NCBI GenBank assembly: GCA_006226345.1
Contig: SBHD01000131.1
Coordinates: forward strand, 1 to 36,816
Length of the DNA: 36,816 nucleotides
Source of the DNA: Bacteroidota bacterium
GTDB taxonomy: Bacteria; Bacteroidota; Bacteroidia; Chitinophagales; Saprospiraceae
Direction: 5' to 3'
Shown here: one piece after another, positions 27,148 to 31,305 of the stretch
How positions within the stretch are numbered: the stretch's first letter is position 1
How the letters are laid out: each line of letters begins with the position of its first letter
Notes under the pieces: model-generated
What the model was told of the DNA's origin: nothing
The model's database searches: none
Seen by the model: the letters and a program-made list of their open reading frames with translations, nothing else
Translations under genes and position numbers: made by a program

Positions 27148-27159
27148 TTGAAATTCTCT

Positions 27160-29181
27160 ATGCGCCCGTTACTCTTTCTTTTCACTCTGCTTTATATGAG
27201 CCAGATCTCTAGTTTGACTGCCCAGAAACAACTTCTCACGCCCGAGCTACTTTGGAAGGTAGGACGGGTCTCGCTGGATTGTGTTTCGCCGGACGGTTCC
27301 ATGGCCGTTTACGGTGTACGCAAATACAGTGCGGAGCACAACAACAGCAAGCGTGTTCTCTACCTGATCAACCTTAAAACAAAGGAGAGCCGCCCCCTGA
27401 CAGATGCCAGTAGTTCGGCTAGCGATGCGGCATTTAACCCTGCAGGAGACCGTATAGGTTTTATCCAGGGCGGTAAGCTGCATGAAGTTTCGCTTCAAAC
27501 GAACACGACCTCCCAGGTGACGGAGTTCGAACTGAACGGTTTTAAGTACGCCCCGGATGGAAAACATATCCTGTTCATTCAGGACGTCAAGTTCGATCAA
27601 ACTCCGACCGAACGGTATCCGGACCTTCCGTCTGCAACCGGCCGCATCTCGGACCAACTATTTTACCGGCATTGGAAGTCCTGGCATGACTATCAATACA
27701 GTAATGTGTTTTATATCCGCTATGCAGACGGCAAGGCAGTGGGCAGCCCGGTAAACATTATGAACGAGCCCTATGACTCCCCCCTGCGCCCAATGGGCGG
27801 CATGGAGCAGATCTCCTGGAGCCCGGATAGCAAATTCATTGTATATACCTGCCGCAAGCTGAAGGGTACGGCGGAAACACGGAGCACGAACTCCGATCTC
27901 TACCTGTATGATCTGGCCACTTCGAAAACACTCAACGTAACAGAAGGAATGGTGGGCTATGATCTGGATCCCGTATTTTCCCCTGATGGCCGCTACCTGG
28001 CCTGGACGAGTATGGAAACTGCCGGATATGAGGCCGATCGCCCACGCCTGATGTTGCTGGATACCCGGACCAATGACCGGACCGAACTGTCTGCAGGATG
28101 GAATTCCGAGGTTGTACATCCGCAATGGGCGGAAGACGGCAGCGGGCTATACTTCTTAAGTGCAACGGATTTTACCTATCAGATTTTCCGGGTCAACCTT
28201 TCTGACCGGAAGATCCGCCAGATCACTACCGGACAGCATGATTACAACAACTTTATGACTGCAGGTGATCAAATCGTTGCAACCCGGGTGTCCATGACGT
28301 ATCCGGCTGAATTGTACCTCGTAGATCCCACTTCAGGCAAAGCAGAACAGATCACTTCTGCCACTGCCGACCCATGGGCCTCTGTCGCCCAGTCAAAGGT
28401 GGAACGGCGTAATGTGAAAACAACGGATGGAAAGAACATGAATGTTTGGGTGGTACTGCCGCCCGACTATGAAGCCGGAAAACAATATCCGGCCTTGCTG
28501 TATTGCCAGGGCGGCCCACAATCGGCACTAAGCCAGTTTTTTTCCTACCGGTGGAACCTGCAGCTAATGGCAGCGCAGGGGTACGTGATCATCGCCCCCT
28601 GTCGTCGTGGTATGCCGGGCGGTCCGGAAGGACAGGCCTGGAATGCGGCCATAAGCGGTGATTGGGGCGGACAGCCTATGCAGGACCTGCTGGCGGCAAC
28701 GGATGCCCTGGTAAAGGAACCTTTTATTGATGCCTCCCGGGTAGGGGCAGTTGGCGCCAGTTTTGGCGGCTATTCGGTTTTCTGGCTGGCAGGTAACCAC
28801 AACAAGCGGTTCAAAACCTTTATCTCACACTGTGGAATGTTCAATACAACCAGCTGGTATGGCACAACGGAGGAACTATGGTTTGCCAATTACGATTTGG
28901 GCGGACCGTATTGGGAACACCCGACAGATGCCTCCTGGACTAAATTCAGTCCGCATTTGTACGTCCAAAATTGGGATACACCCATATTGGTCATGCATAA
29001 TGAATTGGACTTTCGTGTCCCGTTCTCGGAAGGTATGCAAGCCTTTCAGGCTGCCCAGTTACAGGGTATCCCGTCCCGGCTGGTAAGTTTTCCGGATGAA
29101 GGGCACTGGATGTCGACGCCACAAAACAGTTTGATGTGGCAACGGGAGTTTTTCCGTTGGCTGGAGACTTATCTGAAATAA
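27160..29181 (+). CDS. S9 family (prolyl oligopeptidase-like) peptidase, likely dipeptidyl peptidase 5-type
   Basis: A periplasmic serine peptidase that removes dipeptides or short acyl-peptides from peptide N-termini. The product is 673 aa from ATG 27160, where the signal peptide starts (RPLLFLFTLLYMSQISSLTAQ); a TTG start at 27148 would add only four residues. Residues about 40-400 form a beta-propeller with TolB/PD40-like blades (FSPDGRYLAWTS, ISWSPDSKFIVYT). The C-terminal alpha/beta hydrolase domain has the nucleophile elbow GASFGGYS (Ser534), Asp617 in NELDFRVPF and His649 in DEGHWMS: a complete triad. Length and layout match Porphyromonas DPP5, a periplasmic enzyme used in peptide nutrition; the exact specificity is inferred. 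It has its own promoter box and terminator. Confidence 0.92.
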   Translation: MRPLLFLFTLLYMSQISSLTAQKQLLTPELLWKVGRVSLDCVSPDGSMAVYGVRKYSAEHNNSKRVLYLINLKTKESRPLTDASSSASDAAFNPAGDRIGFIQGGKLHEVSLQTNTTSQVTEFELNGFKYAPDGKHILFIQDVKFDQTPTERYPDLPSATGRISDQLFYRHWKSWHDYQYSNVFYIRYADGKAVGSPVNIMNEPYDSPLRPMGGMEQISWSPDSKFIVYTCRKLKGTAETRSTNSDLYLYDLATSKTLNVTEGMVGYDLDPVFSPDGRYLAWTSMETAGYEADRPRLMLLDTRTNDRTELSAGWNSEVVHPQWAEDGSGLYFLSATDFTYQIFRVNLSDRKIRQITTGQHDYNNFMTAGDQIVATRVSMTYPAELYLVDPTSGKAEQITSATADPWASVAQSKVERRNVKTTDGKNMNVWVVLPPDYEAGKQYPALLYCQGGPQSALSQFFSYRWNLQLMAAQGYVIIAPCRRGMPGGPEGQAWNAAISGDWGGQPMQDLLAATDALVKEPFIDASRVGAVGASFGGYSVFWLAGNHNKRFKTFISHCGMFNTTSWYGTTEELWFANYDLGGPYWEHPTDASWTKFSPHLYVQNWDTPILVMHNELDFRVPFSEGMQAFQAAQLQGIPSRLVSFPDEGHWMSTPQNSLMWQREFFRWLETYLK

Positions 29182-29195
29182 CCAGGCCTAAAAAC

Positions 29196-29234
29196 AAAAT
29201 GGCGTTGATGTTTTGCACATCAACGCCATTTTTA
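29196..29234 (+). terminator. Intrinsic terminator of the S9 peptidase gene
   Basis: A perfect stem AAAATGGCGTTGATGT/ACATCAACGCCATTTT (29196-29211 and 29217-29232) with a 5-nt loop is followed by further T, 14 bp after the stop. It is a classic terminator for plus-strand transcription. Confidence 0.9.
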
Positions 29235-29248
29235 AATCTGTTTTTTGG

Positions 29249-29290
29249 AAAAAAAAGAGCCCCCATCCAGCATTACGCGGATAGAGGGCT
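29249..29290 (-). terminator. Intrinsic terminator on the minus strand downstream of the candidate small RNA
   Basis: On the minus strand AGCCCTCTATCC (29290-29279), a 10-nt loop and GGATGGGGGCT (29268-29258) form a stem with G-U pairs. C then eight T follow (29257-29249). It terminates transcription from the right and sits almost back to back with the plus-strand terminator of the peptidase gene. Confidence 0.82.
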
Positions 29291-29304
29291 ATCCCAAAAA
29301 CCGA

Positions 29305-29442
29305 TTACATCTTTATGCGGAAGGGCTTTAGACAAGCCCATGGCAAATCAAAATTACAAGTGACAGGTTGATTAAAACCTGATGTATGTCGGGAATAAAA
29401 GGAGGGCGACTCGACAAGGACTGTCACAATGGAATGATCCAT
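29305..29442 (-). CDS. Possible 45-aa micro-protein inside the small transcription unit
   Basis: ATG 29442 opens a 45-codon frame starting MDHSIVTVLVESPSF and ending FRIKM, with stop TAA at 29307-29305. The stop is 14 bp before the terminator stem, which is what a short gene would look like. The predicted leader is only about 5 nt, there is no Shine-Dalgarno sequence, and the peptide has no recognisable motif. Two RNA hairpins fall inside the frame. I cannot tell whether the frame is translated or a chance ORF in an RNA gene. Confidence 0.25.
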   Translation of the reverse strand: MDHSIVTVLVESPSFYSRHTSGFNQPVTCNFDLPWACLKPFRIKM

Positions 29443-29453
29443 ACGTTGCACTA

Positions 29454-29461
29454 CAAAGGTA
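29454..29461 (-). promoter_or_regulatory. -7 element of the candidate small RNA
   Basis: The minus strand reads TACCTTTG, identical to the argS box. It lies between the dynamin-like gene's 3' end and the candidate RNA, where no annotated gene would need a promoter. TTG occurs 9 bp and 30 bp upstream, not at the usual 17-23. Confidence 0.5.
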
Positions 29462-29580
29462 GACCAAAATCAAGAGAGCGAGGTATACCGACAAAACGGT
29501 AATTCTTCCAGGCAGGTTGCGGCCAGATAGTGTTCTGGAAATGTCCGAGGGATAGGGCGTTTAAATTCCAGACCTTTTTA
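29462..29580. other. Gap between dynamin-like gene and candidate small RNA
   Basis: No gene is seen. The only structure is a weak TACCG/CGGTA hairpin (about 29482-29497) without a following T tract. The dynamin-like operon therefore has no strong terminator of its own and may read through to the terminator at 29249-29290. With 29182-29461 this completes the 399-bp stretch between the S9 peptidase and dynamin-like genes. Confidence 0.4.
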
Positions 29581-31305
29581 TTAATTGATTTTCAGGTCCT
29601 TGTAAAGATGGCCAAAGCGCTCTACCAGTTCCAGATATCGGGAGTCAAAATGCGCGATTTGCTTTTCCTCGTTGGCCAACAGGGCATCTAAATCTCCAAA
29701 ATTGTCGTTGATGCGGCTTTTTATTGTACGCACATAGGTAAATAGTTTGTCGCGCAGGGTCTCTTCCATGCGGCTACGGCCCTGTGCGATCTCGTCGTAA
29801 TACCCTTTAACGATCTTACGTCGTTGAAGGCCAGCAGATATTCCGGCAAACAATAGCCCGACCCCTGTCAAGACCCCGCCGGTGATATCAAATACAGCAA
29901 CTTTGGTAACAGCAGCTAAAATAATTCCGATCACGGCAACACCGCTTCCTGCAGCAATGTTGGGAGATACGTTTGCATTTTCCGGAAACAACCGCGTATC
30001 GGTGAAATTTTCCGAGCGGGACATAAAACGGCCAAATGCTTCCTGGAGATCCTTTAAAACGGCCGCCCGTTTGTCTGATATGTCTTCAAAAATATAGGAG
30101 TCACTCTTCACGACAGTAGTGGTACTTCCCTTGATCTTCAAATCGATCATTTTTGCCATTTGCTGGATGCTGTCAGCCAGGTCTACGACACCATCACTAA
30201 GTTTTGCACGCAGTTCGGCATTAAGGTTTGTTTCCAGTTTTTTTGCCAACTCATCCAGCCAGTCCTTAATGGAAGACTGCTTACTGAATATCCCCATTAT
30301 CGACCTGCGGAGCATGGCCGGGAAAGAGAGTCCTCCTTCCAGTTCCTGCCCCACCTGACGGGTGATCCGGTCGTATCCATGGAGCAGATTCTCGATCAGT
30401 ATACTGCTTTGATGGTTGGACTTAGCCTCCTGATGGTCGAGTGTTTGTTGTACATCTTCCCGGAAACCCCGGTCTGCCTTAAACTGTGCATTTCGGGTGT
30501 CCAGATCTTGCCTGATACGATCCAGCAGGCCTTTTGAGGTGTCCAGGTTGTTTTGCAATTTCAATGCGGCGCCACGTCCTCCGGTCACATGTGTCCGGAT
30601 ATAATCCCGAACTGGTGAAAATCCACTTTCGTCAAACCGACCCTCCAATTCTGCCTTTGCGCTGGTAGCAAAGATCAGGGGATCCTGCATGCCTTTCTTT
30701 TGGGCATAGTCGAATAATCCACGCTCATTTACAGCCAGGTCCTCTTCGTTGAGCAGGTCTTTTTGTTGCAAAACAAAGATGATCTTCTTGTGCCAGTCCT
30801 GGTGAATGAATTCAAAAAAGTCCCAGGCAGACTGCCGGTATGGGTTTTTGGCTTCAAAAACGAATATGACGAGGTCGCTCGCGGGAATAAACCCTTCGGT
30901 GATCTCCTGGTGGCGCTCTACGATGGAATTAGTACCGGGGGTATCGACGATGGCAATGTCACGCAGGATATCCACCGGAAGAAAAACCTTTTTCAAATAT
31001 GGATTTACCGGCACTGTTTCTTCTTCTGCCCCGTATAGAATTTGCTGAATGGTGTCCGTCATCGGTTGCGGCGCCACCGGGCATATTTCCCTTCCGGCTT
31101 CCAGTAGTGCATTGACAAAACTGCTCTTACCTGCTTTGACTTCACCGACAATGACAAACATATACGGTTCGGACATCCGGTTGCGTAACTCACCTACCGT
31201 GGTTGCCAGTTCCTTGTGCCCGATCTCTTGCGTCAGATTATGCAGGTCCTTTACCGCATCTTCAACTTTTACCCGCAATGCCTGTGTGTGCTGGTTTAAC
31301 ATCAT
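29581..31305 (-). CDS. Dynamin-like GTPase with C-terminal membrane hairpin
   Basis: A bacterial dynamin-family protein of 574 aa, predicted to bind GTP and act on membranes. G1 P-loop GEVKAGKS (54-61), a G2 Thr in PMTDT (~83), G3 DTPG (121-124), and a G4-like QQKD (180-183) where NKxD/TKxD is usual. A long helical stalk follows (about 250-440). A hydrophobic pair of segments lies at about 449-494 (VAVIGIILAAVTKVAVFDI, then GGVLTGVGLLFAGISAGL), likely the membrane paddle or anchor. The last 80 residues are helical. Proteins of this type fuse or reshape membranes, and some protect against membrane stress or phage. Last gene of a six-gene minus-strand run, 23 bp after the WbqC-like gene. The exact function is unknown. 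Confidence 0.88.
   Translation of the reverse strand: MMLNQHTQALRVKVEDAVKDLHNLTQEIGHKELATTVGELRNRMSEPYMFVIVGEVKAGKSSFVNALLEAGREICPVAPQPMTDTIQQILYGAEEETVPVNPYLKKVFLPVDILRDIAIVDTPGTNSIVERHQEITEGFIPASDLVIFVFEAKNPYRQSAWDFFEFIHQDWHKKIIFVLQQKDLLNEEDLAVNERGLFDYAQKKGMQDPLIFATSAKAELEGRFDESGFSPVRDYIRTHVTGGRGAALKLQNNLDTSKGLLDRIRQDLDTRNAQFKADRGFREDVQQTLDHQEAKSNHQSSILIENLLHGYDRITRQVGQELEGGLSFPAMLRRSIMGIFSKQSSIKDWLDELAKKLETNLNAELRAKLSDGVVDLADSIQQMAKMIDLKIKGSTTTVVKSDSYIFEDISDKRAAVLKDLQEAFGRFMSRSENFTDTRLFPENANVSPNIAAGSGVAVIGIILAAVTKVAVFDITGGVLTGVGLLFAGISAGLQRRKIVKGYYDEIAQGRSRMEETLRDKLFTYVRTIKSRINDNFGDLDALLANEEKQIAHFDSRYLELVERFGHLYKDLKIN

Follow-up and report, generated by a model that had tools for sequence, protein, structure and literature searches.

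What does a bacterium of the family Saprospiraceae make from a stretch of about 200 nucleotides that has a promoter box and a terminator, and that no frame of at least 80 codons in the ORF list spans? The stretch lies on the minus strand of the window analyzed here, the 36,816 nucleotides of contig SBHD01000131.1 (assembly GCA_006226345.1). The initial annotation described it as a stand-alone transcription unit, a candidate small RNA or micro-gene, and the minus-strand sequence bears out the box TACCTTTG, the terminator and the run of eight T (Table 1). The unit also finds support in relatives, which keep its 3′ part: a BLAST search with positions 29150-29700 matched 38 of 42 genomes of the window's genus, often at several places per genome and mostly over the last ~70 nt only (29321-29249). 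A 91-codon minus-strand frame at 28991-29266 merely touches the 3′ end. Judged by its sequence, the unit is real and most likely a small-RNA gene: sequence and comparison give it its own promoter and terminator and no conserved frame, and its conserved seed beats shuffled seeds, more weakly in its own genome. We propose, with a probability of roughly 0.65, that its product is a trans-acting base-pairing sRNA of the Saprospiraceae that tunes an adhesin operon. The gene structure, distribution, contexts, boxes and complementarity set out below are established by sequence.

The −7 box was assigned by its agreement with TANNTTTG, which we take to be the Bacteroidota consensus. A terminator scan of 701 bp found 2 terminators against 0.7 expected, and the stem-loop is backed by the covariance-model alignment described below, where in 6 of 12 consensus pairs both partners have changed at least once. 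The predicted RNA fold has z = −2.2, with 7 of 200 shuffles equally stable. The second box, TAATTTTG, could possibly give rise to a short RNA of about 105 nt. A strong hairpin at 29196-29232, between the S9 peptidase gene and the sRNA, is placed by the scan on the minus strand and is possibly a bidirectional terminator.

Table 1. The minus-strand unit and its neighbors, by position in the window.
Feature	Position	Strand	Basis or remark
−7 box TACCTTTG	29454..29461	−	Bacteroidota type TANNTTTG
Predicted sRNA, ~200 nt	29249..29449	−	start predicted from the −7 box
TACC-N8-GGTA dyad TACCGTTTTGTCGGTA, proposed response-regulator box	29486..29501	−	24 nt upstream of the −7 box
Conserved core AATCGGTTTTTGGGAT, proposed seed	29291..29306	−	distribution and pairing with operon start regions
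Whole conserved 3′ element	29253..29324	−	covariance model R1 match, 62.4 bits
Intrinsic terminator stem-loop with G-U pairs	29260..29287	−	10 pairs with G-U included, 5 being G-C
Terminator T8 run	29249..29256	−	read from sequence
5′-region hairpin	29364..29381	−	present; not conserved among 22 aligned copies
Second hairpin GGGCTT/AAGCCC	29323..29339	−	present; sequence not conserved among aligned copies
Second TANNTTTG box, TAATTTTG	29349..29356	−	same place as the only box of L004, L005, L007 and L009
45-codon ATG frame, probably not coding	29305..29442	−	ends at a TAA inside the conserved core
Dynamin-like GTPase gene, upstream neighbor	29581..31305	−	Dynamin_N, E 1.8e-19
S9 peptidase gene, convergent neighbor	27148..29181	+	Peptidase_S9, E 1.5e-50

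The conserved part centers on a core of 16 nucleotides, AATCGGTTTTTGGGAT, which occurs exactly in 41 of the 42 genus genomes, and its reversed form, used as control, in none. Across the order the exact core was found in 70 of 298 sampled genomes, by our count in 70 of 87 Saprospiraceae and in none of 211 genomes from other families; the reversed core matched once in the 298. A scan of named records yielded at least 120 stretches, and among the 80 records listed most are titled Saprospiraceae, Lewinella or relatives; one copy (L140) belongs to the cultured Neolewinella agarilytica DSM 24740. From 69 representatives we dropped 4 (cut or tandem copies), aligned 36 of the remaining 65 and built from these 36 the covariance model R1, which at E ≤ 1e-5 matches 73 of 86 genera and 119 of 149 family genomes, a completeness of 95% or higher having been requested, and leaves 30 of the 149 without a match. 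In a sample of the phylum the model matches 57 of 395 genomes at E ≤ 1e-3: the best scores lie at 68-77 bits for five of the six genomes from the family, and the 52 matching genomes outside the family reach at best 38.8 bits, which we take as background. Most of the genomes are metagenome assemblies, and the samples were drawn by the search tool. A terminator follows 160 of 168 distinct copies among the matches listed (by script); contig ends truncate three of the other eight, a tandem array (L098) accounts for two, and the remaining three are chance-like (L100, L107, L121). The core is constant in many genera while the preceding bases vary in the alignment of 36 copies, an invariance that is partly by construction, because the copies were collected by exact core. 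The array just mentioned, in a Bacteroidetes MAG (L098:7334-7536), consists of three copies of core plus hairpin spaced 91-92 nt apart, with a strong T run behind the last copy only. One record titled Thermoanaerobaculia (L161, 4623 bases) is apparently identical to a contig from a genome of the window's genus (G025:C645) and is probably mislabelled or from a mixed bin.

The copies differ in what precedes them. Among the matches listed, the set from named records (L091-L210) comprises 118 distinct copies, 89 of them with at least 300 nt of sequence upstream; a frame ends within 300 nt upstream in 55 of these 89 listed copies, and none does in 34. The last 100 residues of the 55 frames match Por_Secre_tail in 45 cases and PorP_SprF in 3 (E ≤ 0.01, again among the matches listed); with such frames just upstream, those copies are the 3′ ends of mRNAs related to type IX secretion (T9SS). 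Both counts kept L100, L107 and L121 where they qualified, chance-like as these are. In three upstream proteins taken whole, all of them giants, HYR, P_proprotein, dockerin and Por_Secre_tail domains were matched in varying combination, several of the matches falling below the curated cut-off, and many copies sit behind paralogous genes. If a copy is called free when no frame ends within 130 nt of it, 89 of 148 copies among the matches listed are free, and a TANNTTTG box lies 40-260 nt upstream of 39 of these 89 as against 4 of the 59 gene-end copies listed (L098, L100, L107 and L121 left aside); three control patterns were found upstream of 7, 12 and 6 of the 89. Judging from these contexts, some copies end mRNAs of T9SS surface proteins, and others stand free with a predicted promoter.

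Some free copies have a further feature, one that the initial annotation does not mention for the window's unit. Among the matches listed, a TACC/GGTA dyad precedes 24 of 81 free copies, and 25 of its 26 occurrences have a spacer of 8; each of eight control dyads was found at 0-5 of the 81, and only 4 of 54 gene-end copies have the dyad, one of them with a spacer of 8. The distance from dyad to TANNTTTG is 22-24 nt in all 18 copies that have both within 10-45 nt, some of which are close relatives. We read the dyad as a NarL/LuxR-type box on the basis of what we take to be the NarL 7-2-7 consensus. Across the 42 genus genomes the pattern of dyad plus box has 35 matches, and its control has 18. 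Of the 35, 12 lie ahead of this sRNA, and two others led to the adhesin operon.

That operon is about 12 kb long and encodes, in order, a T9SS protein of ~1470 aa, a cohesin protein of ~265 aa, an SprB-like adhesin of ~1500-1700 aa and a PorP/SprF protein. In the window's own genome it lies on a different contig from the window's copy (C163; locus L407), where the gene before it encodes Response_reg and GerE domains and its own products carry, in order, Por_Secre_tail with HYR, Cohesin, SprB repeats with Cohesin and CHU_C, and PorP_SprF. The gene for the GerE-domain regulator is a neighbor of the operon and not of the window's sRNA. A response-regulator gene was recognized by sequence motif in 8 of the 15 operon loci scanned, and its domains were checked in L407 and L439. 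At the eight loci showing the regulator gene, the dyad before the operon's first gene is exact in five (L399, L400, L406, L407, L415) and has one mismatch in L403 and L414; L412 has none between regulator gene and operon. TANNTTTG lies 22-23 nt past the dyad in L399, L400, L403 and L414, hence after only two of the exact dyads (L399, L400); L407 has TGTTTTTG in its place, and the scan found nothing like TANNTTTG after the dyads of L406 and L415. Inverted TACC...GGTA half-sites at a fixed promoter distance are therefore a property of the sRNA that the operon shares only in part. No dyad was found in the 1.5 kb scanned ahead of two T9SS giants that carry a gene-end copy (L401, L402). Apart from this, the sequence TTTAATCC(C) follows the promoter in the operon leaders of L399, L400 and L403 and recurs in the 5′ parts of many free sRNAs; it could pair with the GGGAU of the core.

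The operon also ends in the element. In the genus operon loci fetched, a variant, CAATTGGTTTTTGGGATGGCC, lies 20-927 nt past PorP/SprF, and this variant occurs once each in 26 of 42 genus genomes (control, 0). Outside the genus, a dyad stands between PorP/SprF and the last core at 12 of 14 loci (5 of the 12 had been seen earlier); the two Lewinella-type loci, L435 and L436, have no dyad in that place. Twelve loci from nine genera (L439-L450), nine of them known beforehand to follow PorP/SprF, have TANNTTTG 20-26 nt from the dyad in nine cases. At L439 the whole arrangement can be followed, from the regulator and a dyad through the T9SS protein (in two frames), the cohesin-type protein, the SprB-like adhesin and PorP/SprF to a second dyad and the sRNA; the regulator, T9SS and SprB proteins are recognized by their domains, and the cohesin-type and PorP/SprF proteins are judged from size, ends and position. 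The sRNA gene presumably stood at the operon end originally, and the window's copy, beside a dynamin-like gene, would have been moved or duplicated. The giant T9SS gene of L439 (6607-11464, in a 4-contig genome) consists of two overlapping frames of 1160 and 480 aa, which may reflect a frameshift, an error or phase variation.

The start regions of the operon's cistrons contain complements of the core. At the 14 loci outside the genus, AACCGATT is found at 9 PorP/SprF starts and AACCGA at 12, AATCCC at 13 cohesin-gene starts, and CCCAAATTCCG at 9 SprB starts and CCCAAA at 12; within the genus, ATGA-R-R-CCGAT is found at 12 of 15 SprB starts, and ACCAATTGTT, the complement of the operon-end element AACAATTGGT, at 10 of 13 cohesin-gene starts. 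We calculated duplex energies for the core against the segment from −30 to +18 around each start, the gene starts being picked by script. Outside the genus the means are −20.3 kcal/mol for SprB (Mann-Whitney p = 6e-10), −15.8 for PorP (p = 4e-9) and −11.6 for the cohesin gene (p = 9e-4), against −9.7 kcal/mol for a background of 153 other genes. Within the genus they are −17.0 for SprB, −13.6 for PorP and −9.75 (not significant) for the cohesin gene, whose start reaches −16.1 when the operon-end element is used instead. These p values are optimistic, because the target loci are orthologues and the sites were noticed before testing. A stronger argument is the shuffled-core control: with the mean difference pooled over the three genes and 60 sampled background genes, none of the 200 shuffled cores came up to the real value in any of the three tests, which include the genus.

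Along the scanned stretches, the SprB start outranks every other site at 12 of the 14 loci outside the genus; at L436 the strongest site falls within the 51 nt before the PorP start, and at L435 it lies elsewhere. When 13 genus loci are scanned with the operon-end element, the top site is the SprB start in two (L406, L416) and the cohesin start in one (L407). In the duplex energies, the genus loci L410 and L418 show no good SprB or PorP site. In a ranking of 475 genes of the window's own genome, with the best of at most three starts taken for each, the window's element places PorP 12th, SprB 17th and the cohesin gene 104th, and the operon-end element places the cohesin gene 2nd, SprB 8th and PorP 11th. 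The target sites are not unique in the window's own genome, and the picture in the genus is weaker than outside it. The only matched sequence change, AATTGG with ACCAATTG, has both its sides in a single transcript and leaves the window's copy out. Because this C-to-T change affects the end of the operon itself, it supports pairing by the element and an effect in cis equally. No matching cohesin start accompanies the AATTGG elements found outside the genus (L441, L449).

Other places to which the core might pair gave less. Simple antisense targets across the genome were considered and set aside: the 12-mer complement is frequent in the genus, yet no conserved start site emerged, and of 20 places outside the core that were read most lie in or opposite longer frames (L346 is intergenic, and L340 is an AATTGG element). 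Pairing with the AATCTC-ATG context of giant genes was likewise rejected, the duplex energy being no better than background (23 genes, p = 0.33) and 30 of 300 shuffled cores doing as well as the real one. The context itself, (A)ATCTC-ATG, is common at the starts of giant T9SS genes; it occurs in exact form (ATCTC-ATG) at 8 of the 156 ORFs of the window and genus loci, all of them first operon genes, and similar contexts are found at several giants of other genera (loci L399-L415, L421-L432). One gene of the window's own genome (L453, contig C62), presumably a 6-phosphofructokinase from its N-terminus, has in its start region CCCAAAAACGAATTTTT, a near-full core complement that ranks 23rd of 475, and may possibly be a further sRNA target.

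How might such an RNA work? We infer the transcription of the sRNA, its pairing in the cell, the identity of its activator and the repressive sign of its action, and suggest the following course of events. A LuxR/NarL-type response regulator encoded beside the operon probably activates both operon and sRNA through the TACC-N8-GGTA boxes. The core, AAUCGGUUUUUGGGAU, immediately ahead of the terminator, would serve as the seed and pair with the translation-start regions of the cistrons, above all those of the SprB-like adhesin and PorP/SprF, and this pairing would tune, most likely lower, translation of the operon's cistrons. An inducer would then switch on the operon while the sRNA represses SprB and PorP/SprF, an arrangement that would amount to an incoherent feed-forward loop. 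Since the core stands at the ends of T9SS messages and complements the operon starts, the sRNA probably sets the amount of the system. In the window's genus the operon mRNA would end in the core variant AAUUGG, and the start of the cohesin gene fits this operon-end variant rather than the window's sRNA.

Because the core or its variant stands at the ends of the operon mRNA and of the mRNAs for giant T9SS cargo, these mRNAs may carry the seed too. We can therefore imagine, as a tentative and on balance unlikely extension, one seed shared by the free sRNA, the operon mRNA end and the giant-cargo mRNA ends, through which cargo mRNAs would regulate translation of their own scaffold and secretion partner. 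If so, cargo, cohesin/SprB scaffold and PorP/SprF would be kept in balance, and the level would be set by the free sRNA, itself induced by the operon's response regulator; regulation of message by message, free of Hfq, would reside in mRNA 3′ ends across the whole family.

Much of this evidence bears on other readings as well. The 3′ end of the operon mRNA could fold back on its own cistron starts, leaving the free copy as a by-product or competitor. The element at the end of the genus operon would be explained in this way, as would the confinement of the only matched change (AATTGG with ACCAATTG) to one transcript, but free copies have a promoter and box of their own, and the window's copy and the operon are on separate contigs; we consider action in cis unlikely, if a serious candidate. 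Less probable still is that the core is a site for an RNA-binding protein and the free RNA a CsrB-like decoy that titrates this protein from T9SS mRNAs. In its favor, the free RNA and mRNA 3′ ends have one sense sequence in common, and the core has only 3 predicted pairs in the consensus fold; against it stand the complementary sites at operon starts and searches for two types of protein, which found neither an RRM protein in the window's own genome nor Hfq in 21 genomes. We are more doubtful again that the element does no more than terminate or stabilize transcripts, its conserved sequence having multiplied as gene ends were duplicated. The terminator behind 160 of 168 distinct copies among the matches listed, and the position of many copies behind paralogous genes, would suit that origin; against it stand the core, unchanged across many genera while the bases ahead of it vary (in part a result of exact-core selection), the promoters of the free copies, and the failure of shuffled cores to reproduce the start complementarity.

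The remaining readings concern the window's unit by itself. Transcription only by read-through, as the 3′ UTR of the dynamin-like gene, is suggested by the common strand and by a gene end 274 nt upstream of the core, but the element stands behind other genes in relatives (T9SS genes, PorP/SprF and others) and a box-promoter pair separates it from the dynamin-like gene, making this very improbable. A switching RNA or a 45-aa micro-gene, as raised by the initial annotation, we find hardly credible. The alternative 7-bp pairing exists, 29427-29421 matching 29366-29360 perfectly, but by our own rough estimate about one such pairing is expected by chance in 200 nt, and the switching role falls with the 5′ part that contains the pairing and both hairpins: BLAST matches in relatives begin only at 29321, this part aligns poorly among 22 copies, the window's included, and across those 22 the alternative pairings expected of a riboswitch are not conserved. 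The 45-codon frame is likewise present, but not as a conserved small gene or as part of a dual-function RNA: a frame of at least 25 codons ends at this stop in 10 of the 22 copies (window included; 29-88 codons) and in 12 there is none, and the ten are unrelated apart from the codons of the conserved nucleotides just before the stop. A kinship with 6S-Flavo (RF01685) found no backing, with no match in the window at the gathering threshold and none in the locus at E < 5; a search for the family was blank in 20 of 20 genomes, the control genomes being equally blank. Other Rfam families fared no better (nothing in the window at gathering; matches in the locus at E < 5 far below gathering scores), and 20 related loci gave one tRNA only. 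An rRNA-operon terminator, suggested by copies near contig ends, was dismissed, no rRNA being present in the 20 scanned loci, as was a phage origin, a 20-base pattern having 0 matches in viral contigs.

A trans-acting sRNA, the reading we prefer, invites comparison with known RNAs. In enterobacteria, 3′-UTR-derived and feed-forward sRNAs have a seed next to the terminator in mRNA 3′ ends, with one regulator for sRNA and target, and many of them depend on Hfq. The placement of the seed is alike, but Hfq was found in none of the 21 genomes of the window's genus searched. RRM_1 was not found in the window's own genome (the control was positive in Bacteroides ihuae and Synechococcus elongatus), and a search there for an RRM partner like RbpB, of which more below, ended with none. 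These two negative results leave the sRNA with no known chaperone. 6S-Flavo is an RNA of the same phylum and of a similar order of size, but the window's unit has no Rfam match. We know of no report that either FopS/GibS or Rfp18, the two closest known cases in the published excerpts we draw on, shares its seed with the 3′ ends of its targets; the kind is a known one, that of multicopy base-pairing sRNAs. A search of one literature collection found no sRNA circuit described for SprB/PorP-SprF adhesin loci in Saprospiraceae, no paper containing the core sequence and none combining Saprospiraceae, small RNA and type IX secretion.

FopS and GibS of Bacteroides thetaiotaomicron are, according to excerpts of their description, multicopy sRNAs with a single-stranded seed followed by a terminator, whose pairing sites are the start codons of mRNAs for surface proteins, namely SusC-like transporters; FopS, which has been deposited in Rfam, works together with the RRM protein RbpB (PMC11697453). 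The Saprospiraceae sRNA resembles them, as far as those excerpts go, in being multicopy in one Bacteroidota family, in having its seed before the terminator and in having the starts of surface proteins as proposed targets. It differs in its family, in its proposed targets (SprB and PorP/SprF) and in a core that also ends operon and cargo mRNAs; no RRM protein was found in its own genome, and the distinction is one of published description, not of sequence. The window's unit has no FopS/GibS-type match in Rfam, in a copy of that database that possibly lacks the FopS model. In Flavobacterium psychrophilum, a gliding, T9SS-bearing bacterium, excerpts of a second report describe Rfp18, a conserved sRNA with one region predicted to pair with protease and secreted-adhesin mRNAs, and a remFG-sprCDBF operon with two sigma-factor promoters, one of them sigma-54 (PMC9723704). 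There too, going by those excerpts, a conserved sRNA of a T9SS-bearing bacterium has one seed for several mRNAs, as FopS/GibS do; the targets differ, and the comparison is one of descriptions and not of sequences.

Saprospiraceae are named as abundant in wastewater plants in one abstract (PMC9304909). The present analysis makes available conserved pairing sites that are open to compensatory mutation, and it brings together, within a single possible regulon, a LuxR-type regulator, a surface cohesin system and the 3′ ends of mRNAs. As to the proteins themselves, cohesin domains occur in the SprB-like proteins and in the small operon protein, and dockerin-like domains in the giant T9SS cargo (L407, L446, L163, L183), so that a cohesin-dockerin system at the cell surface is possible.
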